A stretch of DNA of 64,000 nucleotides from Bacilli bacterium (GTDB lineage: Bacteria > Bacillota_I > Bacilli_A > RF39 > UBA660), in NCBI GenBank assembly GCA_017541325.1, contig JAFXZI010000010.1, positions 1 through 64,000 of the forward strand, read 5' to 3'. Every line of letters starts with the position of its first letter. The stretch's first letter is position 1. Both the position numbers and the translations under genes were made by a program. A model generated the notes under the pieces. That model saw only the letters and a program-made list of their open reading frames with translations. It was not told the origin of the DNA and ran no database searches. This document shows positions 3,179 to 64,000 of the stretch, one piece after another.

Positions 3179-3771
3179 ATTATCAATTAGAAATGGATAA
3201 AATATTAGAAAGTTTAGATAGTAAAAAAAGACTGTTATTACATGCATGTTGTGCACCATGTTCTTCATATGTACTTGAATATTTAACTAATTATTTTGAT
3301 ATTACAATTTTATACTATAATCCTAATATTTATCCAAAAGAAGAATTTGATAAAAGATTTGAAGAGTTAACAAAATTAATAAAAGAATTACCACATAGTA
3401 ATTCTATAGAATTAATTGAAGGACGTTATGATTATAATGATTTTCTAAATATTGCTAAAGGAAGAGAACATATTCCTGAAGGTGGAGAAAGGTGTTTTAA
3501 GTGCTATGAACTTAGAATGAGGGAAGCTGCAGAATATGCTAAAAATAATAATTATGATTACTTTACAACAACTCTTTCTATTAGTCCTTATAAGAATTCT
3601 AATAAGTTAAATGAAATTGGAGAATTATTAGAAAAAGAATTAGGTATTAAATACTTATATGCAGATTTTAAAAAGAAAAATGGATATAAAAGAAGTATTG
3701 AATTATCTAAAGAATATAATTTATATCGTCAAGATTATTGCGGTTGTATATATTCAAAGAAGAATGATTAA
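3175..3771 (+). CDS. queH: Epoxyqueuosine reductase QueH
   Basis: 198 residues. QueH catalyses the last step of queuosine formation, reducing epoxyqueuosine to queuosine in tRNA with an Fe-S cluster. The family hallmarks are present: the N-terminal H-A-C-C-A-P-C-S motif near residue 24, the middle C-F-K-C pair near 105 and the C-terminal Y-C-G-C near 190, together giving the conserved Cys set. Length fits the DUF208/QueH family. It starts within the stop of the AAA+ gene (ATGA) and is followed by a terminator. No other queuosine biosynthesis or salvage gene is in the window. Confidence 0.9.
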   Translation: MNYQLEMDKILESLDSKKRLLLHACCAPCSSYVLEYLTNYFDITILYYNPNIYPKEEFDKRFEELTKLIKELPHSNSIELIEGRYDYNDFLNIAKGREHIPEGGERCFKCYELRMREAAEYAKNNNYDYFTTTLSISPYKNSNKLNEIGELLEKELGIKYLYADFKKKNGYKRSIELSKEYNLYRQDYCGCIYSKKND

Positions 3772-3787
3772 TATTCTTCTTTTTTTG
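3756..3787 (+). terminator. Rho-independent terminator after queH
   Basis: Ten-base-pair stem (3756-3765 with 3773-3782) overlapping the queH stop codon, followed by a run of T. Confidence 0.8.
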
Positions 3788-3813
3788 TTATAATTAGATT
3801 AGAGGTGATTATC

Positions 3814-4554
3814 TTGAAGATAAAGAAATTTACTAAAATGAGAAGAAACAATTTATATAAATTAACTCTTGAAGATGATTCAACTATCTTAGTTCACGAA
3901 GAATTAATATTAAAAAAAGAAATGTTATTAAATAAGGAAATAGATCAAGATACTATTGATAATATAGATAGATTAAATAATAATTTAAATGCTTATGATC
4001 TTGCTATTAAATATATTTCTGGTAGATATCACTCTATTCATGAAGTAAGAGATTATTTGAAAAAGAAAGAAATAGATAAAGAGGTAATAGAAGAAGTAAT
4101 ATCTAAAATGCTTAAACAAAAGTATTTAGATGATAAAGTATTTACTAAAGCATTTATATCAGATCAAATTAATTTTACAAACAACGGACCGTATAAAATT
4201 CGAAGAGAATTAGAAAATTTCTATGTAAGAGATTCTATTATTGATGAAGAATTAGAATTATTTGATTATGCTAAAGAAAAAGAAAGATTAGAAGTGCTAA
4301 TTCCAAAATATGTAAAAACTATAAGAAATAAGAGTTATTCTATGATGAAGAAAAAAGTAGTAGATCATTTCTCCGATTTAGGTTATACCAAAAGTATTAT
4401 TATTAGTTTACTTGATTTAATTGAATATGATGACAAGGATATATATTTAAAAGAATATGAGAAAGTAAAAAAGAGATTATCTAGAAAATATAGTGGTGAG
4501 GAACTAGATTTTAAAGTTAGACAATCGCTATATCAAAAGGGCTTTAGAGAATAA
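3814..4554 (+). CDS. recX: Regulatory protein RecX
   Basis: 246 residues from TTG 3814. An AGAGGTGAT ribosome binding site lies just upstream, and the GTG at 3805 is part of that site, so TTG is preferred. RecX binds RecA filaments and modulates recombination activity. The family core is visible as repeated three-helix units, e.g. the A-x-x-Y-I-S-G-R-Y-H-S segment followed by 'EVRDYLKKK' and later 'LKQKYLDDKVF'. The length is near that of B. subtilis RecX. No recA is in the window; lexA lies far downstream at 44238. It is convergent with prsA and shares a bidirectional terminator with it. Confidence 0.85.
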   Translation: MKIKKFTKMRRNNLYKLTLEDDSTILVHEELILKKEMLLNKEIDQDTIDNIDRLNNNLNAYDLAIKYISGRYHSIHEVRDYLKKKEIDKEVIEEVISKMLKQKYLDDKVFTKAFISDQINFTNNGPYKIRRELENFYVRDSIIDEELELFDYAKEKERLEVLIPKYVKTIRNKSYSMMKKKVVDHFSDLGYTKSIIISLLDLIEYDDKDIYLKEYEKVKKRLSRKYSGEELDFKVRQSLYQKGFRE

Positions 4555-30398: not shown

Positions 30399-30964
30399 AT
30401 AAACAAGCAATACTAGAGGGATTATTATTTGTTGTTGGAGATGAAGGACTTACATTAAATCAAATAGAAGAAATACTTGAAGTATCTCCTGAAGAAGCCA
30501 ATAAAATAATAAGTGATTTAAAACAAATTTATTCAGATGAATCCCGTGGAATAATGATTAATATTTTAGGTGATAGATTTAAATTAAGTACTAAAAAAGA
30601 ACATCGTGAGTATTATAAAAAATTATTAGAAGATGAAGATAGTAATCTATCACAAGCAGCTTTAGAAACACTGGCTATTATCGCTTATAATGAGCCATTA
30701 ACTCGTATAATGGTTGATGAAATTAGAGGAGTAAACTCTCGTGAAATGATTCATAAACTTGTTGCGAAAGGACTAGTAAAAGAAGTTGGTAGAAGTGATC
30801 TTCCTGGTAGACCAATTCTTTATGCAACTACAAGTGATTTTCTAGATTATTTTGGATTAGCATCTAAAGAAGAATTACCTAAATTTGATATGATTGTTAA
30901 TAATAATGAAGATATAGATGAAGAAGATTTATATCATTCGAGATATACAGAAGATGAAGAATAG
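30395..30964 (+). CDS. scpB: Segregation and condensation protein B
   Basis: 189 residues. ScpB dimers bind ScpA to form the SMC accessory complex. Two winged-helix domains: the first with 'ILEGLLFVVGDEGLTL', the second with A-L-E-T-L-A-I-I-A-Y-N-E-P-L-T-R and L-V-A-K-G-L-V-K-E-V-G-R-S-D-L-P-G-R-P. The D-L-P-G-R-P segment is diagnostic. Starts in the scpA stop and overlaps the next gene by 11 nt, a tight operon. Confidence 0.95.
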   Translation: MNKQAILEGLLFVVGDEGLTLNQIEEILEVSPEEANKIISDLKQIYSDESRGIMINILGDRFKLSTKKEHREYYKKLLEDEDSNLSQAALETLAIIAYNEPLTRIMVDEIRGVNSREMIHKLVAKGLVKEVGRSDLPGRPILYATTSDFLDYFGLASKEELPKFDMIVNNNEDIDEEDLYHSRYTEDEE

Positions 30965-31796
30965 ATTACTTTTTGCATTATCATTATTGTTATTCATATT
31001 TATAATTCTTTCTGATTTAACTGTACCAAGAGATATTAAAAAAATAGAAAAAAAAGTAAAAGAATATTTAAAAGAAAAATATCATGAAGAGTTTAATATA
31101 GATAGTATTAATGTAGATAAATATGTTTATGATGAAGAAGAACTAGATGATGCATATATATATGAATTTGATGTTTCTTCAAGTAGATTAACAAAATTTA
31201 AATTGTACTATTATGAATATGATAATAATTCATTTGAAAAAAATAATATAGAAGATTTAGTAGAACCAGGAATATATGAAAATTATATTTATGAATATAA
31301 AATAAAAGAAATTGAGAATAAGTATTATAAAGATATTTTAAATATTATAGATAAGTCTAGTAATATAGAATTTAGTTTAGATAATATGCAAGTTGGATTA
31401 TATAATATTTTGTTACTATATAAAAATAGTTCAAAAGAAGATAAAGAATTATTTGATAAATATTATGGATTTAATAAAAGAGTAAGTGATAAAGAATTCT
31501 TAGATACTTATTTTGAAATATCTAAAACAAATGAATTAATAATTAATATGGATGTAAATAAAGAAATAAATGATGGTAATATAGAATCTTTTAAAAATGA
31601 TATAAGAAATCTAGTTTTATTTTTAAAAGAAAATAATATAGATTACTATGATATTAATATGAATCTAAATGGTTATGTTAATGCACGAGCTACTAGATAT
31701 ACTGATAATAATAAAGAACAGATTTATTTAGTATTTGATTATCCATCATATTTTGATATAAAAGATAGTTTTAATGTAATTGTTTTTGATTTATAA
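30954..31796 (+). CDS. Membrane-anchored or secreted protein following scpB
   Basis: 280 residues from ATG 30954, within the scpB end; this start puts a signal/anchor helix (residues ~5-22) right at the N-terminus, unlike the upstream ATG at 30918. The rest is charged, Tyr/Asn/Lys-rich, alternating helix and strand, with no Cys and no motif recognised. Ribosome binding site is weak, so coupling to scpB translation is likely. Function unknown. Confidence 0.6.
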   Translation: MKNRLLFALSLLLFIFIILSDLTVPRDIKKIEKKVKEYLKEKYHEEFNIDSINVDKYVYDEEELDDAYIYEFDVSSSRLTKFKLYYYEYDNNSFEKNNIEDLVEPGIYENYIYEYKIKEIENKYYKDILNIIDKSSNIEFSLDNMQVGLYNILLLYKNSSKEDKELFDKYYGFNKRVSDKEFLDTYFEISKTNELIINMDVNKEINDGNIESFKNDIRNLVLFLKENNIDYYDINMNLNGYVNARATRYTDNNKEQIYLVFDYPSYFDIKDSFNVIVFDL

Positions 31797-31829: not shown

Positions 31830-32837
31830 ATGTTTCTAAATACTTGTGAAAATTATTCTTTTTTATCTAGTATTTTATTGATAAAAAGAGTAATTGAAGT
31901 TGTTTGTCTATTAGTACCAGTAATACTAGTATTAGCAGCTGGAATAGCTCTTGCTAAAATTGTATTTAATCCAAATATTCAAATGACTAAAAAAGATGTT
32001 AAGAAAATTGCTAATAAATTTATTGCAGCAGCAGCAGTATTCTTTGTACCGTTGTTAGTAAGTTTATTAATGACTTTATTAGGTGAAACCAGTGTTCTTG
32101 AAACAGAATGTTGGACTAATGCTAATAATGAAGCAATAGCAGTTTATAAGAGTAACAAAGAAGTCGAAGATCAAGTACAACGAGAATTAGATGATTCTAA
32201 GCATGCAGAAGCAGAAAAAGTTAGAAAAGATGTAGAAGCAGCTCGTGAAAAAGCAAGAGAAGAAAACGAAAAGAAAAATGAAGATGAGATTAAGAAATAC
32301 CAAGGTACTGGTGGAATATTAATTGGTGATGTTGTTTATTATAATCAAGGTGATTATGGCGGAAGTCCATATGGTTCATATGGAACTATTGCATCTCATG
32401 GATGTGGGCCAACATCAGCTGCTATAGTAGCATCAACATTCTTAAAACCAGAAGTTCATGATCCTATAGAAGCTACTAATTGGGTTTGTGCTCATGGTGG
32501 ATGTACTTCATCTGGTTCTTATTTTGGAACTCTTGCTGAATATTTAAAAAGTTTAGGTATTCAAGGAAGTGAATTGTATAGTTGGAATGATGCTAATATT
32601 GAAAAACTTAATGAAGCATTATTAACTGGTGATAGCCTAGCAATAATCTTGGTTCATGAACCAGGAAATAGTTGTCCATTTACTAATGGAGGACACTTCT
32701 TAGTTATTACAGGAATGCAAAATGGTGAATATACAATTGCTGATCCAGCAAGTAGAGATAGAACTAAAAACACTTGGCCAGCAAGCGCGTTCTCATCTTG
32801 TTCAGGACCAACATTCTATATATTCAATAGGCCATAG
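31830..32837 (+). CDS. Two-helix membrane-anchored C39-type cysteine peptidase
   Basis: 335 residues. N-terminus without a classical signal: M-F-L-N-T-C-E-N then S-S-I-L-L-x-K-R and two membrane helices (~residues 24-46, 63-87), an arrangement like VirB2/TrbC-type pilin-like proteins, followed by E-C-W-x-N-A-N. A charged helical Glu/Lys linker (~105-155) leads to a papain-like C39 domain: Cys192 in H-G-C-G-P-T-S, His289 in G-G-H-F-L-V-I, Asp305 in I-A-D-P-A-S. The enzyme domain likely lies outside and cuts a peptide or wall bond. The same N-terminus recurs at 62250 and 63952 with another enzyme domain. A lipoprotein gene follows after 9 nt. Confidence 0.82.
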   Translation: MFLNTCENYSFLSSILLIKRVIEVVCLLVPVILVLAAGIALAKIVFNPNIQMTKKDVKKIANKFIAAAAVFFVPLLVSLLMTLLGETSVLETECWTNANNEAIAVYKSNKEVEDQVQRELDDSKHAEAEKVRKDVEAAREKAREENEKKNEDEIKKYQGTGGILIGDVVYYNQGDYGGSPYGSYGTIASHGCGPTSAAIVASTFLKPEVHDPIEATNWVCAHGGCTSSGSYFGTLAEYLKSLGIQGSELYSWNDANIEKLNEALLTGDSLAIILVHEPGNSCPFTNGGHFLVITGMQNGEYTIADPASRDRTKNTWPASAFSSCSGPTFYIFNRP

Positions 32838-32846
32838 GAGGTTATT

Positions 32847-33482
32847 ATGAAGAAGAAATTATTATTACTATTTAGTTTATTATTTATATTAACTGGTTGT
32901 ACTGCAAACTATGAATTAACTTATAAAAAAGGAGTATTTACAGAAGATATAACTCTTTATGAAGAAAAAGATGTAGCTCAACATGAAGAATTACCTTCTA
33001 TTACTAAAATTGAAGAAAATTCAGATAGAGTTAAACTAGCTGATGGTGAGTATTATAAAATAGAACATACAACAGAAGGAAATAATAATGTTTTAAAAGC
33101 ATCTTATAAATATGACAAATTATCATTAAAAGAATCTTTAATATATAAAGAATGCTTTACTGAAAAAAGTATAGTAGAGGGAGAAAATAGTATATATATT
33201 AAATTGACTGGTGATATAAAATGTGAATATTTAGGAGATACTACTGTTACATTTAAAACAGATAAAAAAGTATTAACAACAAATGCTACTAAAAAAGATG
33301 AAAAGAATGGCGTTTATACTTGGGATAAATTAACTAAAGATGGAATTGTTATAGAAGTAAGTAAAAAAGATCTTACTAAAGATGCTAATATTATTCCACC
33401 AATAGTTAGAATAGTTATTGTTCTATTACTTTTAGGAACAGGAATCTATATATTAAAAAGATACAATGGTGTTAAAGAATAA
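32847..33482 (+). CDS. Lipoprotein with C-terminal membrane helix (module partner)
   Basis: 211 residues. Signal peptide ends at lipobox L-T-G-C (Cys ~18), then 'ANYELTYKKG' opens a beta-rich outer domain of ~150 residues with one Cys pair (residues ~113 and ~133). A final hydrophobic helix (~188-203) and a basic tail follow, so the mature protein would be held by both a lipid and a helix. It is the homologue, by layout and opening sequence, of the protein at 63281, and both follow an anchored hydrolase gene. Function unknown. Confidence 0.8.
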   Translation: MKKKLLLLFSLLFILTGCTANYELTYKKGVFTEDITLYEEKDVAQHEELPSITKIEENSDRVKLADGEYYKIEHTTEGNNNVLKASYKYDKLSLKESLIYKECFTEKSIVEGENSIYIKLTGDIKCEYLGDTTVTFKTDKKVLTTNATKKDEKNGVYTWDKLTKDGIVIEVSKKDLTKDANIIPPIVRIVIVLLLLGTGIYILKRYNGVKE

Positions 33483-34842: not shown

Positions 34843-37764
34843 ATGAACGAAATATTAGAAATAATAAACAATAACATCGAAGAAGTATTAAATAATTCCG
34901 AATTATTACAAAGAGTATGTGATTATTTAAATAGTAGTTTTGTACTTAATAGTGATTCTTTAAAAGCTAATCCTAATATTTTAAGAATTAGTTCTTTTAT
35001 CATTCCTAAAATTAAAGAAGATCCAAGTATTGTTTTATCCTTTCCATATAAAGATATGACATCAACAGATAAACAAATATATTTAAGAGAAGCAGCAATT
35101 CAACACTTTATTCCTTCATTTGAACAAATAGAGGATAATCCAGAATTAGGTAGAAATTTACCTATTGGTATATTAGAAAGATTATTAAGAAGTAATCCTA
35201 GAATGCTTATTTATTTTCCAGAAGAGGAGATACTTCCTCATTCTAAAGGAATAGAATTTGTTGCAACTGAAGAAGAACTTAAAAGAATTCCTGCTCTTAG
35301 AAAAATAGATTCTATAATGGAAGCATCAATTATAGAAAATCCGAGCTTAATTAAATATTTAGAAACTAAAATAGATGAATATATTGTAGAAGATGCTTTA
35401 AAAGAAACTAAATTAACAAGAGAAGATTTTTTAAACAACCAATTTCTATGTACAATAGAATATCTTTGTATTGGAGAATATACTCCTTATTATAGATATT
35501 TAAGTAATGAAAAGAAAGCAATAATTGTATCTAATTATTTAGAAGAAGGTAAAATAGATGATTTATTGGAACTTCCTTTTTTACAACATGAATTTAATCC
35601 TTATTTGGATGAATCAATTAATGTAGGAGAAGTAATTGAATTAATTAAGGCTATTAAACCAGATTTAGATAGAGCCGATGAACCAAGTGTTAACAATCAA
35701 AATTGGGAAATACTAAATTCTGTTTTAGACGGAATTGCAGCTTATAGATATAGAACTAATAAGAATACATTTAAGTTCAAAAGTATAGATGCTTTAGCTG
35801 ATAGATTTGAACAATACTTTTATGAGATAGATGATGGAAATAAAGATGATATTCTTGAAATTCTTGCTAATGAATGTATAGATTTCATGGAATCAGATGA
35901 TAGAGAAGAAGTGTCAAATTCTTTAAAGAAGTATTTCTATAGATTTTATGATATTTATTTAAAAAATAATAGATCTCTTCCAGTATCTGGTGAAGATGGA
36001 AAAATAATTGCTGAATTTTGTAATCAAATACTAAATGATCATAGAGATAAATATATAGTTCAAGAAAAAGAAAAATTAAAAAATATAATTAATGATACTT
36101 TTGGATTAAAACCAGATATTATTGATCAAATACTAAGAGAAAAGAAAAGAAATAAAGCTCTTGCTGTTTTAAGAGAAGAAATATATTCTGGAAAACTTGA
36201 TGGTAAAATAGATGAAATTTTCTATAAAGAAGAAATTAGAAAACAATTAAAAAAATCAAATATATTTTTACCAGATGATAAGTTTGATGAAATTTTCAAT
36301 CATTTAGTAAAAATGTTTATAGAAACAGGAAAATTAGATAAAAAAGAACTTCATGATTACTTTGAAGAAAGTGGATATGGATTACCTAGTGCATGTATTA
36401 TTCAAATAGTTAAAAAATTAAATAAAGAACTTAATGCTAGAGCAGAAAAAACAGTTCTTAGTAAATCTGAGGCTATAATAACTTCTGGAGATAGATTTAG
36501 ATATACTAAAACTTTTGTTGCTAAAAACTTTAGTATGACAAATAGAAAACGTACTGATTATGTACTAAGTTCTTTATTAATAGAATTATTAGATAATCCG
36601 AAAAAATGTAAGAAAGCAGTTAATAATATAGATGATTTATTTAGTTTAAAAAGAATAATACCTTTCTTTGGATCAATTAAAGGAACTAAGGAATTATCTG
36701 TCCAAATGTTAATAGATATTTTATCTTATTTTCCAAGAATTAAAGATAGATTAGATATTAGTGATGAAAGAATAGAATTATCTTTTGAAAAACTAGTTGG
36801 ATTTGCAACTGAATATGGTAAATCATCTAGTATATTAAGAACTATTATTTCACCAACTATTACTGATGTAATTGGTGAGTTCAATGTTGGAAAATATGCG
36901 GAGTTTTATTTAGAGAATATGTTTGATAGAAGAGAATCAAGTATACCTATTGTTAGTGGTGAAACTAGAAAATATACTTTTTCATCTGATTTTAGAGATC
37001 AAGATAGATTAATAATAGGAAGAATGTATAGAGATAGTTGTATCGACTTAAATGATTCTTCTGGATATGATACATATTTAGAATGCTTAAAAGGACCAGA
37101 TGGAGATGCAATATTAATAAGAGAAAGAATAAGTAATGAGTTAGCTGGTAGAGTATTAGCGGTTAGAAGAGGAAATGTCGTTCAATTACAATTAAGAAAC
37201 CTAGATAGAAGAATAAGCGAAGAAGAATATAAAAATATAATTAGATTAATTGGAAAACAAATGATAAGAGAATCTGCACAATGTGGAGATAATTTAGATG
37301 TTGTAGTAGTAGCGACTGACCTTCATAAAGGATTAAGAGATGATAGATTAAAAACTAATTTTCCACATGCTGATTGGGGAGGATTCTATGAAGTAGTTGC
37401 AGAAAAAGAAGATGATGTCCAATTCTCTTTTAACGAACCAGTTCAGTTTATTTATACTCCTAAAAGAAAAAGAGTACGTGAAGATGCAACTGATCAAGAA
37501 ATATCTATGATGAAGGCAATTAGTATTAGACTTAATCCTGATCAAAAAGAAAGAGAAGAATTGGAACGTAGTTTTGAACCAGTTATTTTTGAAGAAACTG
37601 AAAATAGTATTTTACTTGGAGAAGACTGGTATATTATACATAGAGATGGAGAAATAATAGAACAAGTAGTTATACCTACTAAAGATAACAGACAAGTTGA
37701 GGAAATAAAAACTGCTATAGAAACATTTGGTTTAGGTAAAGGAAGTGGTGCATATCATGGTTAA
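34843..37764 (+). CDS. Large protein of unknown function (973 aa)
   Basis: No family recognised. Residues ~1-620 are charged and predicted helical, with short repeated leucine-rich helical segments ('PNILRISSFIIPKIKEDPSIVL'-like). The last ~330 residues change to a mixed alpha/beta domain containing R-M-Y-R-D-S-C-I-D-L, A-G-R-V-L-A-V-R-R-G, and 'KGLRDDRLKTNFPHADW', then a beta-rich end. No signal peptide or membrane helix, so cytoplasmic. Strong GGGTGATAAT site. It overlaps the next gene by 8 nt and leads a run of tightly linked genes to 39788. Confidence 0.65.
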   Translation: MNEILEIINNNIEEVLNNSELLQRVCDYLNSSFVLNSDSLKANPNILRISSFIIPKIKEDPSIVLSFPYKDMTSTDKQIYLREAAIQHFIPSFEQIEDNPELGRNLPIGILERLLRSNPRMLIYFPEEEILPHSKGIEFVATEEELKRIPALRKIDSIMEASIIENPSLIKYLETKIDEYIVEDALKETKLTREDFLNNQFLCTIEYLCIGEYTPYYRYLSNEKKAIIVSNYLEEGKIDDLLELPFLQHEFNPYLDESINVGEVIELIKAIKPDLDRADEPSVNNQNWEILNSVLDGIAAYRYRTNKNTFKFKSIDALADRFEQYFYEIDDGNKDDILEILANECIDFMESDDREEVSNSLKKYFYRFYDIYLKNNRSLPVSGEDGKIIAEFCNQILNDHRDKYIVQEKEKLKNIINDTFGLKPDIIDQILREKKRNKALAVLREEIYSGKLDGKIDEIFYKEEIRKQLKKSNIFLPDDKFDEIFNHLVKMFIETGKLDKKELHDYFEESGYGLPSACIIQIVKKLNKELNARAEKTVLSKSEAIITSGDRFRYTKTFVAKNFSMTNRKRTDYVLSSLLIELLDNPKKCKKAVNNIDDLFSLKRIIPFFGSIKGTKELSVQMLIDILSYFPRIKDRLDISDERIELSFEKLVGFATEYGKSSSILRTIISPTITDVIGEFNVGKYAEFYLENMFDRRESSIPIVSGETRKYTFSSDFRDQDRLIIGRMYRDSCIDLNDSSGYDTYLECLKGPDGDAILIRERISNELAGRVLAVRRGNVVQLQLRNLDRRISEEEYKNIIRLIGKQMIRESAQCGDNLDVVVVATDLHKGLRDDRLKTNFPHADWGGFYEVVAEKEDDVQFSFNEPVQFIYTPKRKRVREDATDQEISMMKAISIRLNPDQKEREELERSFEPVIFEETENSILLGEDWYIIHRDGEIIEQVVIPTKDNRQVEEIKTAIETFGLGKGSGAYHG

Positions 37765-61882: not shown

Positions 61883-62203
61883 ATGGATATACAAACTATA
61901 CAATATATAGCTATTTTTATTATAGTTTTAATAATTCTTTTAGCGGTTTTAAAAGCTGGAAAAAAAGATGCTCATCTAGAACTTAATAAACTAGTAGATT
62001 ATTTAGGTGGAAAAGAAAATATTATTAATACTGAGACAAATATGTCTAGATTTATAGTAACTTTAAAGGATGTATCTATTGTTAATAAAGAAGGAATACA
62101 AAAGTTAGGTGCAAAAGGTATTGTTGAAATAGATAATCAATTAAAGATAATATTAGGAGAGAATTCTAAACAATTAAAAAAGTATATAGATGAATTAAAA
62201 TAA
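61883..62203 (+). CDS. Membrane-anchored PTS EIIB-like protein without the phosphorylated Cys
   Basis: 106 residues. One N-terminal helix (~7-25), then a ~75-residue domain that follows the glucose-type EIIB: L-V-D-Y-L-G-G-K-E-N-I, a strand with S-R-F-I-V-T, L-K-D-V-S-I-V, L-G-A-K-G-I-V-E and L-K-I-I-L-G. In real EIIB the loop carries the phospho-Cys just before T-R-L-R; here that position is Asn53 (T-N-M-S-R). So it cannot carry phosphate as EIIB does. No other PTS genes nearby. Ribosome site GAGAGTGATAAT. Confidence 0.75.
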   Translation: MDIQTIQYIAIFIIVLIILLAVLKAGKKDAHLELNKLVDYLGGKENIINTETNMSRFIVTLKDVSIVNKEGIQKLGAKGIVEIDNQLKIILGENSKQLKKYIDELK

Positions 62204-62249: not shown

Positions 62250-63221
62250 ATGATATTAAGTACATGTACAGATTCAAAATACTTATCATCAATATTATTA
62301 ACAAAAAGATTTATTGAATTAGTAGGAATAATAATACCATCAGTATTAATTATTTCGGTTGCAATAACATTATTTAAAATAGTACTATCGCCTGATATGA
62401 AGAACAATAAAAAACATTTAAAGAATATCTATTCGAAAACAGTCGGAGCTTTAGTAATATTTTTTATACCAACTATGGTAAGTGCATTAGTTGAGGCAAC
62501 AGGTGTACCAGGACTTTCTAGTTCTACTTGTTGGCAAAATGCAAATACAAGTACAATAGAAACATATAAAGAAGCTGAAAAACAAAGAGATGCAGGAGAA
62601 GCTGCAAAGAATAAGTCTGAAACAGAAAAAGCAAAACAAATGAGAAAAATTGTTAATGCTACAAGAGAAGCAGCACGTGCTAAAAATGAAAAAGAAAGTG
62701 ATGAGGCTAAGAAAAAAGCATTTGAAGCATCAGAAGAGGCAAGTTGGAATGGAACAGGAACAGCAAGTGCAACAGCCGCAGAATTAATTAGAATTGCTGA
62801 ATCTAAAGTTGGAATTTCTGGAACTCCAAATGAAATAACTTATGCTTTTGGTTCAGAAGGTGGATCTTATTCATATCAATGGTGTTCAGAATTTGTTTGG
62901 TATGTTTCAAATTTATCAGGAGTTTATCCAAATAAAGTAACAAAAAAAGCAGATAGTAATCAAATATATATACAATATTTTAAAGAAAAAGGACAATATC
63001 AAATATCAGCAGGACACGGAGGAAACTATGTTCCTAAAATGGGAGACTATATTTTCTTTGATTGGAGTGGGAATCCAAATGGTGGAGATCATATAGGACT
63101 TGTAAAGACTGTTTCTGGTAATACAATTTATACAATTGAAGGAAATAGTGGAAACGCTGTTAGAGAAAAAAGTTATAGTCTTGATAACAAGAATGTAATC
63201 GGATATGGAGTATGGGAATAA
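62250..63221 (+). CDS. Two-helix membrane-anchored CHAP-type amidase/peptidase
   Basis: 323 residues. N-terminus M-I-L-S-T-C-T-D..S-S-I-L-L-T-K-R, then two membrane helices (~26-47, 66-86) and C-W-Q-N-A-N, the same module as at 31830. A Lys/Glu/Ala-rich charged helical linker (~105-170) leads to a CHAP domain: Cys212 in Y-Q-W-C-S-E-F-V, His281 in G-D-H-I-G-L-V, then I-E-G-N-S-G. CHAP enzymes cut peptidoglycan amide bonds; acting at the outer face from a membrane anchor is inferred. Terminator in the stop region; a lipoprotein gene follows. Confidence 0.83.
   Translation: MILSTCTDSKYLSSILLTKRFIELVGIIIPSVLIISVAITLFKIVLSPDMKNNKKHLKNIYSKTVGALVIFFIPTMVSALVEATGVPGLSSSTCWQNANTSTIETYKEAEKQRDAGEAAKNKSETEKAKQMRKIVNATREAARAKNEKESDEAKKKAFEASEEASWNGTGTASATAAELIRIAESKVGISGTPNEITYAFGSEGGSYSYQWCSEFVWYVSNLSGVYPNKVTKKADSNQIYIQYFKEKGQYQISAGHGGNYVPKMGDYIFFDWSGNPNGGDHIGLVKTVSGNTIYTIEGNSGNAVREKSYSLDNKNVIGYGVWE
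62268..62298 (+). repeat. 31-nt direct repeat, copy 1
   Basis: Identical to 63970-64000. Encodes the T-D-S-K-Y-L-S-S-I-L part of the anchored-hydrolase N-terminus. Exact DNA identity suggests recent duplication or gene conversion. Confidence 0.9.
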
Positions 63222-63280: not shown

Positions 63281-63940
63281 ATGAATAAGAAGGTATTTAT
63301 TTTAATAATACTAGTCTTACTATTAACTGGTTGTAAGGCAAATTATGTATTAAAATATGAAAATGGAAAATTTAGTGAACATTTAGAGTTTATTAGTGAA
63401 AAAACTAAATATGTAGAAGATGAAGCACATCCTACTTATGAAGCGTTAAAAGAAAATAATGTTCCAGCAGTAGTTGATGGAAGCGAAAAATGGATTGTTG
63501 ATCAAGATAGTGATCAATATGATATAAAAATATCTCATGATCTTAACAATTCGACATTAGATGATTTAACAATTGTAGATGAATGTTTTTCTCTACATAC
63601 TTATAAAGAAGGAGATAAAACTATTTACTATGCCGCGCATGGAGATTATAATTGCGACTTTTTAGATAATGGTAGCACTTTTACTTTAGAAACAAGTTCT
63701 GAAGTAATAGATTCAAATGCAACAGAAGTGGATGGTAACAAATATATTTGGGATTTAAATAGTCAAAAAGTTAAAGAAAATGGAATAGTATTTCAATTAG
63801 TAAAAGAATCTTTCGAAAAAGATAGTAAAAAGAAAAAAACGGATTCTTCATTAATTCCATGGTATGTAAAATTAATTATTTCAGTAATTGTAATAGTTGC
63901 TGTTATAGGTGGAGTTACATATATAAAGAATCATAGTTAG
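63281..63940 (+). CDS. Lipoprotein with C-terminal membrane helix (module partner, copy 2)
   Basis: 219 residues from ATG 63281 with GGTGATG upstream; TTG 63269 is within the site. Lipobox L-T-G-C near residue 18, then K-A-N-Y-V-L-K-Y-E-N-G, matching the A-N-Y-E-L-T-Y-K-K-G of the 32847 protein. Outer domain of ~160 residues with one Cys pair, then a hydrophobic helix (~195-212) and a short end K-N-H-S. Follows the CHAP-type gene and precedes the third anchored-hydrolase copy by 11 nt. Confidence 0.8.
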   Translation: MNKKVFILIILVLLLTGCKANYVLKYENGKFSEHLEFISEKTKYVEDEAHPTYEALKENNVPAVVDGSEKWIVDQDSDQYDIKISHDLNNSTLDDLTIVDECFSLHTYKEGDKTIYYAAHGDYNCDFLDNGSTFTLETSSEVIDSNATEVDGNKYIWDLNSQKVKENGIVFQLVKESFEKDSKKKKTDSSLIPWYVKLIISVIVIVAVIGGVTYIKNHS

Positions 63941-63951
63941 GTGGTGTAAAA

Positions 63952-64000
63952 ATGATATTGGAAGCATGCACAGATTCAAAATACTTATCATCAATATTAT
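63952..64000 (+). CDS. Third anchored-hydrolase copy, cut by the window end
   Basis: Only 16 codons are seen: M-I-L-E-A-C-T-D-S-K-Y-L-S-S-I-L, nearly the start of the 62250 protein. AGGTGGTGTAAAA before ATG. The enzyme domain lies outside the window. Confidence 0.75.
   Translation, partial: MILEACTDSKYLSSIL
63970..64000 (+). repeat. 31-nt direct repeat, copy 2
   Basis: Exact copy of 62268-62298; it may extend past the window end. Confidence 0.9.

Follow-up and report, generated by a model that had tools for sequence, protein, structure and literature searches.

Pilin-like membrane anchors with exchangeable envelope hydrolases and partner lipoproteins: a putative surface-display system derived from T4SS parts in a family of gut Bacilli

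The window analyzed here, a stretch of 64,000 nucleotides from the genome of a Bacilli bacterium, carries a gene for a C39-type peptidase with two N-terminal membrane helices, followed by a gene for a lipoprotein that ends in a membrane helix. The first-pass annotation described this pair as a recurring module, in which a constant membrane platform resembling VirB2/TrbC pilins displays exchangeable cysteine hydrolases. The questions raised by the locus are what this platform is, where its parts come from, and what the enzymes and their lipoproteins would do on it.

Fusion protein 1 (335 aa; ORF at 31830..32837, + strand) consists of a pilin-like N-domain at about residues 1-108, a stalk at residues 93-158 and a C39-like domain at residues 167-333. 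A short N-terminal tail with Cys6 is followed by two hydrophobic helices, an ECWTNAN motif at about residues 93-99 and then a charged helical linker, and the predicted model (pLDDT 83) placed helices at residues 9-46, 54-83 and 93-158. Peptidase_C39_2 (PF13529) matched residues 167-307 with an E-value of 4.9e-10 and a score of 40.6 bits against a cut-off of 24. In the Foldseek comparison, the C39 domain showed a papain-like fold of the C39/ComA/PeiR type, with 3erv, ComA and PCAT1 as the top matches. A catalytic triad of Cys192, His289 and Asp305 had been proposed; every orthologue keeps Cys192 and His289, as well as Gln173, but three of the five (L028, L040 and L046) have Gln in place of Asp305. 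Partner lipoprotein 1 (211 aa; ORF at 32847..33482, + strand), encoded after a spacing of 9 nt, has an LTGC lipobox, an LppM-like beta domain and a C-terminal membrane helix.

The second pair has the same layout. Fusion protein 2 (323 aa; ORF at 62250..63221, + strand) contains a pilin-like N-domain that is 41% identical to that of fusion protein 1, a stalk and a CHAP domain (PF05257; E-value 7e-11, 42.9 bits against a cut-off of 26), and Cys212 and His281 are invariant in the alignment of its CHAP group. Partner lipoprotein 2 (63281..63940, + strand) was listed as an ORF from TTG 63269, and its true start is likely ATG 63281, which gives a protein of 219 aa. Fusion protein 3 (324 aa, CHAP; 63952..64000, + strand) is 80% identical to fusion protein 2; its gene is cut by the window end and runs to 64926 on contig C8 (L001:7953-8927). 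The claimed pair of an anchored hydrolase and a doubly anchored lipoprotein was thus borne out, and the window holds three copies of the N-domain instead of two. A 292-aa secreted or anchored protein encoded upstream of fusion protein 1 (30918..31796, + strand) has kept this position in congeners (L028, L037). The CHAP module is likewise preceded by the gene of a 106-aa protein with an N-terminal helix and a single PTS EIIB-like domain (61883..62203, + strand; PF00367, 6.1e-8), and congeners (L021, L081) share this arrangement. A large uncharacterized protein at 34843-37764 of the window (973 aa) and another at L010:8010-10307 (765 aa), whose gene comes after a fusion gene on contig C10, have C-terminal parts that look alike by eye.

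The N-domain is a repeated element of this genome (1.25 Mb, 15 contigs). It was found at 17 places with E <= 10, most of them with E <= 1.3e-5, a recurrence far above chance. Thirteen are N-terminal fusions, and three further copies are stand-alone or C-terminal pilin-like domains. In the genus, the N-domain was found in all nine genomes with 3-17 copies each, and N-terminal fusions were found in eight; the ninth assembly is 78% complete. In the family, 30 of 31 genomes contain the N-domain, which in most cases makes up a separate protein of 100-150 aa, and N-terminal fusions occur in the same genus and six others. All matches at E <= 1e-12 in a survey of 120 genomes of the class fell within this one family. 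The named relatives with the N-domain are gut assemblies labeled as uncultured Bacilli, Erysipelotrichaceae, Tenericutes and Bacillales, and three of them (1.3-1.5 Mb) carry 20-23 copies each, nearly all fusions. No copy was found in one Lachnospiraceae, one Oscillospiraceae and one Shapirobacteria genome, and the last of these thus gave no direct tie to Patescibacteria pilins. There was also no match among 72,556 plasmids or 50,697 phage records, and among the IMG/VR matches listed the coverage was essentially of the C39 part only; on these results a mobile-element origin of the N-domain was rejected. The total set comprises 105 distinct N-terminal fusions, 79 stand-alone copies and 26 C-terminal copies from related gut Bacilli. 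The C-terminal copies, all collected in the family, represent a second arrangement: on contig C2, at about 42-46 kb, a secreted protein ends in a pilin-like domain (L006:5400-6569), and its gene immediately precedes that of a large polytopic protein of VirB6-like appearance (L006:6608-9253).

The enzymes on this N-domain are varied. Those of the same genome include C39, two CHAP, two VanY, S11, YkuD-like with Big_2, GH99-like and alpha/beta hydrolase domains, and a tandem array of four genes on contig C1 encodes SGNH/GDSL, cysteine-hydrolase-like plus C39, and two CHAP-like enzymes; several of these labels are readings of the sequence by eye. Pfam tallies over 55 and 47 fusions gave nearly all hydrolases, among them CHAP, C39, VanY/M15, NlpC/P60, M23, S11, YkuD, amidase and phage-lysozyme types, and further glucosaminidase, GH99, GH114, NAGPA, GDPD, GDSL and esterases. 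The description of the cargo as cysteine hydrolases was therefore right for most enzymes, but too narrow, since other hydrolase classes occur too.

Exchange of these enzymes is evident at one syntenic site, 3' of a CobW-type gene (68-91% identical), where congeners carry a VanY, an alpha/beta hydrolase or a SleB-like enzyme, the last label being a sequence reading without a Pfam hit. At this site, the N-domain of the VanY fusion shares 55% identity with that of the alpha/beta hydrolase fusion. On the N-domain tree, the six enzyme classes require nine changes (minimum five), and monophyly of the VanY fusions was rejected (p-AU 0.004). Together with the 105 distinct fusions, these results supported the proposal of a constant membrane platform with exchangeable hydrolases. 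For 20 lipoprotein-paired fusions of three enzyme classes, the lipoprotein tree requires two changes, which is the minimum, whereas the N-domain tree requires five. The lipoprotein thus tracks the enzyme better than it tracks the anchor, so that recombination has taken place between the anchor on one side and the enzyme with its lipoprotein on the other; this pattern points to an action of the lipoprotein on the enzyme or together with it. At the CobW site, however, the lipoproteins that accompany VanY and the alpha/beta hydrolase cluster with those of the SleB-like fusions, and enzymes have therefore also been exchanged next to a retained lipoprotein.

Several features of the N-domain are shared between the 105 fusions and the 79 stand-alone pilins, namely a Pro in helix 1, K-x-V before the loop, FF in helix 2, and Cys. 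A Cys is present before helix 1 in 87% of the fusions and after helix 2 in 97%, and this pair flanking the two helices could form a disulfide. A secreted thioredoxin-like protein with a CPHC motif (L002:9302-9832), encoded right after a VanY fusion and its lipoprotein, could serve the conserved Cys pair. The loop between the helices has a net positive charge in 102 of the 105 fusions, which by the positive-inside rule would place both the N- and the C-terminus outside. A profile built from the fusions only (A4) matched the stand-alone pilin of this genome's own T4SS locus at 4.4e-14 and the pilins of another genus at 1e-18 to 3e-19, and it drew no match at 1e-12 from the 105 members of the class that lie outside the family. 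These matches argue that the N-domain is homologous to the stand-alone VirB2-like pilins of the T4SS locus. T4SS_pilin (PF18895, VirB2-like) matched 22 of 47 fusions, with a best value of 9.7e-7, and its cut-off of 26.6 bits was exceeded by one fusion (L130:3907, 27.6) and by the stand-alone pilin encoded immediately ahead of the VirB6-like gene in genus g13 (L222:7142, 29.9). The window fusions scored 11.6 and 17.1 bits, under the cut-off, and most of the 14 control genomes gave sub-threshold matches as well. The N-domain profile matched no solved structure of a pilin. Since the window proteins stay below the cut-off and solved pilins were unmatched, the tie to classical VirB2 runs via the gut Bacilli family. 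The initial comparison with VirB2/TrbC pilins is therefore supported for VirB2, through PF18895 and the stand-alone pilins, but not for TrbC (PF04956), which did not match the N-domain.

VirB4- or VirB6-like genes had been named as neighbors to look for, but none was found in the window; the T4SS lies on another contig (C2:3642-8461). This locus encodes a pilin (3642-4028), TrbL_4/VirB6, a PrgI-like protein and VirB4. Next come the genes for a 728-aa protein with SpoIID and glucosaminidase domains, for a lipoprotein and for VirD4. The assignments were supported by an AAA_10/TraG P-loop in VirB4, T4SS-DNA_transf (2.3e-57) and TrbL_4 (2.2e-6), and the PrgI-like gene was assigned by position and sequence appearance only. 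VirB4, VirD4, VirB6 and VirB3/PrgI-like components of a conjugative T4SS are all present. The stand-alone pilin adjoins VirB6-VirB3-VirB4 on the upstream side in this genome and in L222, L223 and L225. VirB4 was found in all nine congeners (92-97% identical) and in 27 of 31 family genera (66-85% identical), and in 25 of the 27 VirB4-positive family genomes a coordinate comparison put virB4 and a pilin-domain match on one contig, at most about 10 kb apart. VirB4 is consistently split into two adjacent ORFs of about 190 aa and 596 aa (L007:6090-8461, L222:10175-12510, L224:232-2606 and L225:12959-15333). A relaxase of the family searched (PF03432) was present in only two of nine congeners, and the single one in this genome (C5:47006-47389), about 17 kb from a VanY fusion on C5 and away from the T4SS on C2, probably belongs to a separate mobile element. 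As judged from gene content, the T4SS of this lineage appears to be chromosomal, core and usually relaxase-less. In most genera of the family, the T4SS occurs but N-terminal fusions do not.

The T4SS of genera g13 and g26 comes immediately after a set of Tad/Flp pilus genes (RcpC/CpaB, CpaF-type ATPase, TadB/TadC-like), and the pilins lie where the two meet. The hybrid clusters (L222:613-17867 in G020, L225:1544-18306 in G033, and also L223 and L224 in a congener) contain the Tad/Flp set, VirB2-like pilins, VirB6, a PrgI-like gene, VirB4, a hydrolase and VirD4; in the genome studied here, the Tad half is on contig C7 and the T4SS half on C2. In six related assemblies (L110-L113, L116 and L137), genes for SpoIID, M23, CHAP or C39 hydrolases are followed by one or two LppM-like lipoproteins. 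Several of these sets visibly adjoin VirB4 or VirD4, and their hydrolases have no pilin segment. The C39 domains of such T4SS-locus hydrolases are 45-46% identical to that of the window (L111, L112).

The predicted model of partner lipoprotein 1 (pLDDT 85) had M. tuberculosis LppM (2nc8) as its top PDB match, with an E-value of 3.2e-4, a probability of 1.00 and a moderate TM-score of 0.46/0.55. PF21946 (LppM) was not among the Pfam matches of the window lipoprotein; it matched two of the 19 members of the lipoprotein-family alignment (A3), at best 8.8e-5, and a T4SS-locus lipoprotein (L111:5060) exceeded its cut-off (30.0 versus 27 bits). The structural match thus points to an LppM fold for the partner lipoprotein. 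Pfam matches to Lysis_col, Peptidase_C13 and similar families were rejected, being under the cut-off and driven by the signal peptide. Because the signal of a full-length profile might reflect lipobox bias, a profile of the ectodomain only was used. A version ending 45 residues before the C-terminus lost the signal, and a version retaining the N...YTW motif regained it. With this profile, T4SS-locus lipoproteins of related assemblies scored 1.8e-20 and 2.3e-17, and that of the genome's own T4SS locus scored 3.2e-5, with the next ORF at 0.48, marking it by profile score as a weaker but clear relative. The pilin, the hydrolase and the lipoprotein are thus each represented by relatives within T4SS loci, and every one of the three components of the module can be traced to a T4SS part. 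Two points go beyond the first-pass annotation: the T4SS locus also has this lipoprotein among its parts, and the lipoprotein tracks the enzyme rather than the platform.

The lipoprotein is a less constant partner than had been proposed. It co-occurs with the fusions in other genomes, and both it and the N-terminus, which recurs widely, are thus found beyond this genome, contrary to what would have spoken against the module, but it was found beside only about 21 of 44 fusions in the genus, and in three other genomes only two LppM-like lipoproteins lie beside 47 fusions. The VanY fusions are mostly paired instead with a conserved protein of about 220 aa with an N-terminal membrane helix (L004:7481-8143, and downstream genes in L029, L030, L036, L079 and L080), for which no Pfam match was found.

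Our best explanation, to which we give a probability of roughly 0.6, is a surface-display system for envelope hydrolases that derives from T4SS parts, in which the pilin segment serves as the anchor and the lipoprotein as an enzyme-specific partner, likely for envelope remodeling linked to the T4SS/Tad machinery. The first 100 or so residues would form a VirB2-like double-pass anchor with the N-terminal tail outside, the basic loop inside and the C-terminus outside, and the Cys before helix 1 and the Cys after helix 2 may be joined by a putative disulfide. In the predicted model, a charged helical stalk of 65 residues would raise the hydrolase off the membrane. The exchangeable enzyme, C39 or CHAP in the window, would then sit on the outer side of the membrane, where it could act on peptidoglycan or on another polymer of the envelope. 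With its lipid as the tether at one end and its helix at the other, the LppM-fold lipoprotein may be a regulator, inhibitor or presenter of the enzyme. Since a hydrolase-lipoprotein pair also occurs between virB4 and virD4, where it may open or remodel the wall for the T4SS, envelope remodeling linked to the T4SS/Tad pilus machinery is the most likely job of the modules. The link between the window modules and the T4SS is one of homology and not of a shared operon, and these modules have no T4SS gene nearby in the window.

It is possible, though we consider it doubtful, that the pilin segment was simply captured as a convenient double-pass anchor, and that the enzymes today work as housekeeping autolysins and in scavenging, independently of the T4SS. 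The fusion modules are scattered along the chromosome, unlinked to the T4SS locus, their enzymes include the housekeeping types S11, VanY and YkuD, and one genome (G030) bears fusions while no VirB4 was detected at 1e-20 in its 93%-complete assembly, a single such case in a small sample. The common ancestor of RFN20, RF39 and ML615J-28 was inferred to have lost most PBPs and lyt/cwl hydrolases (PMC10868615), and if the present lineage falls in this group, the fused hydrolases could replace the lost ones. However, the hydrolase-plus-lipoprotein pair is also found within the T4SS locus, and fusion repertoires differ strongly between congeners despite the close similarity of their VirB4, which is unlike essential autolysins.

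In a more far-reaching version of the display system, which we put forward only tentatively and regard as rather improbable, the Tad and T4SS gene sets would form one hybrid machine with VirB2-like pilins, many of them bearing interchangeable hydrolases, often with a cognate lipoprotein, that are displayed or delivered against the envelopes of the cell itself or of its neighbors. An unlikely alternative is a polymorphic arsenal, in which enzyme-bearing pilins enter the pilus or are translocated by the T4SS/Tad machinery onto neighboring cells and the lipoprotein provides self-protection. The constant, trafficking-like N-domain, the highly variable C-terminal enzymes, the domain swaps, the tandem arrays of four (L009) and five (L130) genes, and a lipoprotein that tracks the enzyme are consistent with it, as are the Patescibacteria, where a T4SS with VirB2-like arrays and adjacent hydrolases is needed for growth on host bacteria (PMC12102498, PMC12857230). 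However, the C-terminal domains are envelope, carbohydrate or ester hydrolases, and neither nucleases nor pore formers were seen among them. Furthermore, the lipoprotein lies beside only half of the genus fusions and its LppM-like relative is itself a T4SS-locus component, and a C-terminal domain of 200 aa may not fit a pilin helix. Very improbable is a chance resemblance to VirB2 of a generic hydrophobic two-helix hairpin, with fusions unrelated to T4SS pilins, as the low PF18895 scores in the window, the sub-threshold matches in control genomes and the unmatched solved pilins would allow; it was rejected on the A4 matches to T4SS-locus pilins, the empty outside class members and the shared Pro, FF, K-V and Cys columns.

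The proposed display system shares features with several known ones. VirB2 was reported not to be found in Gram-positive T4SSs except those of Patescibacteria (PMC12857230), which have arrays of VirB2, mostly lack a relaxase and have hydrolases encoded close to virB4 (PMC12102498). Like those systems, the one described here has a two-helix pilin segment, tandem arrays near virB4, a small genome, a chromosomal T4SS mostly without relaxase and hydrolases next to virB4, but its host is a member of the Bacilli, its pilin segment is fused to enzymes of 200-500 aa in many dispersed genes, and the T4SS adjoins a set of genes for a Tad-type pilus without a break. The VirB1-type peptidoglycan hydrolases of Gram-positive T4SSs (PrgK, TgaA, CHAP/SLT proteins) are likewise membrane-anchored wall hydrolases with a copy in the T4SS locus, here between virB4 and virD4, whereas the window-type anchor is a pilin segment and not a single helix, many copies are orphans, and an LppM-fold lipoprotein is paired with them. 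The partner lipoprotein resembles LppM (Rv2171) in its C-terminal membrane helix as well as in structure, but it is only about 11% identical to LppM, is paired with hydrolases and also occurs inside T4SS loci. Polymorphic toxin systems have a constant N-domain, swapped C-domains and a small adjacent partner gene as well; in the present module, known from sequence and structure models, the C-domains are envelope hydrolases and the partner is often absent. In the open-access literature subset searched, no pilin-enzyme fusions at this scale (up to about 20 per genome of 1.3-1.5 Mb) were found.

This family of small-genome gut Bacilli is apparently the second Gram-positive lineage with VirB2-like pilins, encoded directly upstream of VirB6. 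The fusions look like a holder that takes exchangeable tools for cutting material of the cell envelope, and the pairing of lipoprotein and enzyme gives a concrete experimental handle on this arrangement. They pose a testable question, namely whether T4SS-type pilins serve these bacteria as a general enzyme anchor or as parts of an enzyme-decorated pilus or secretion machine.
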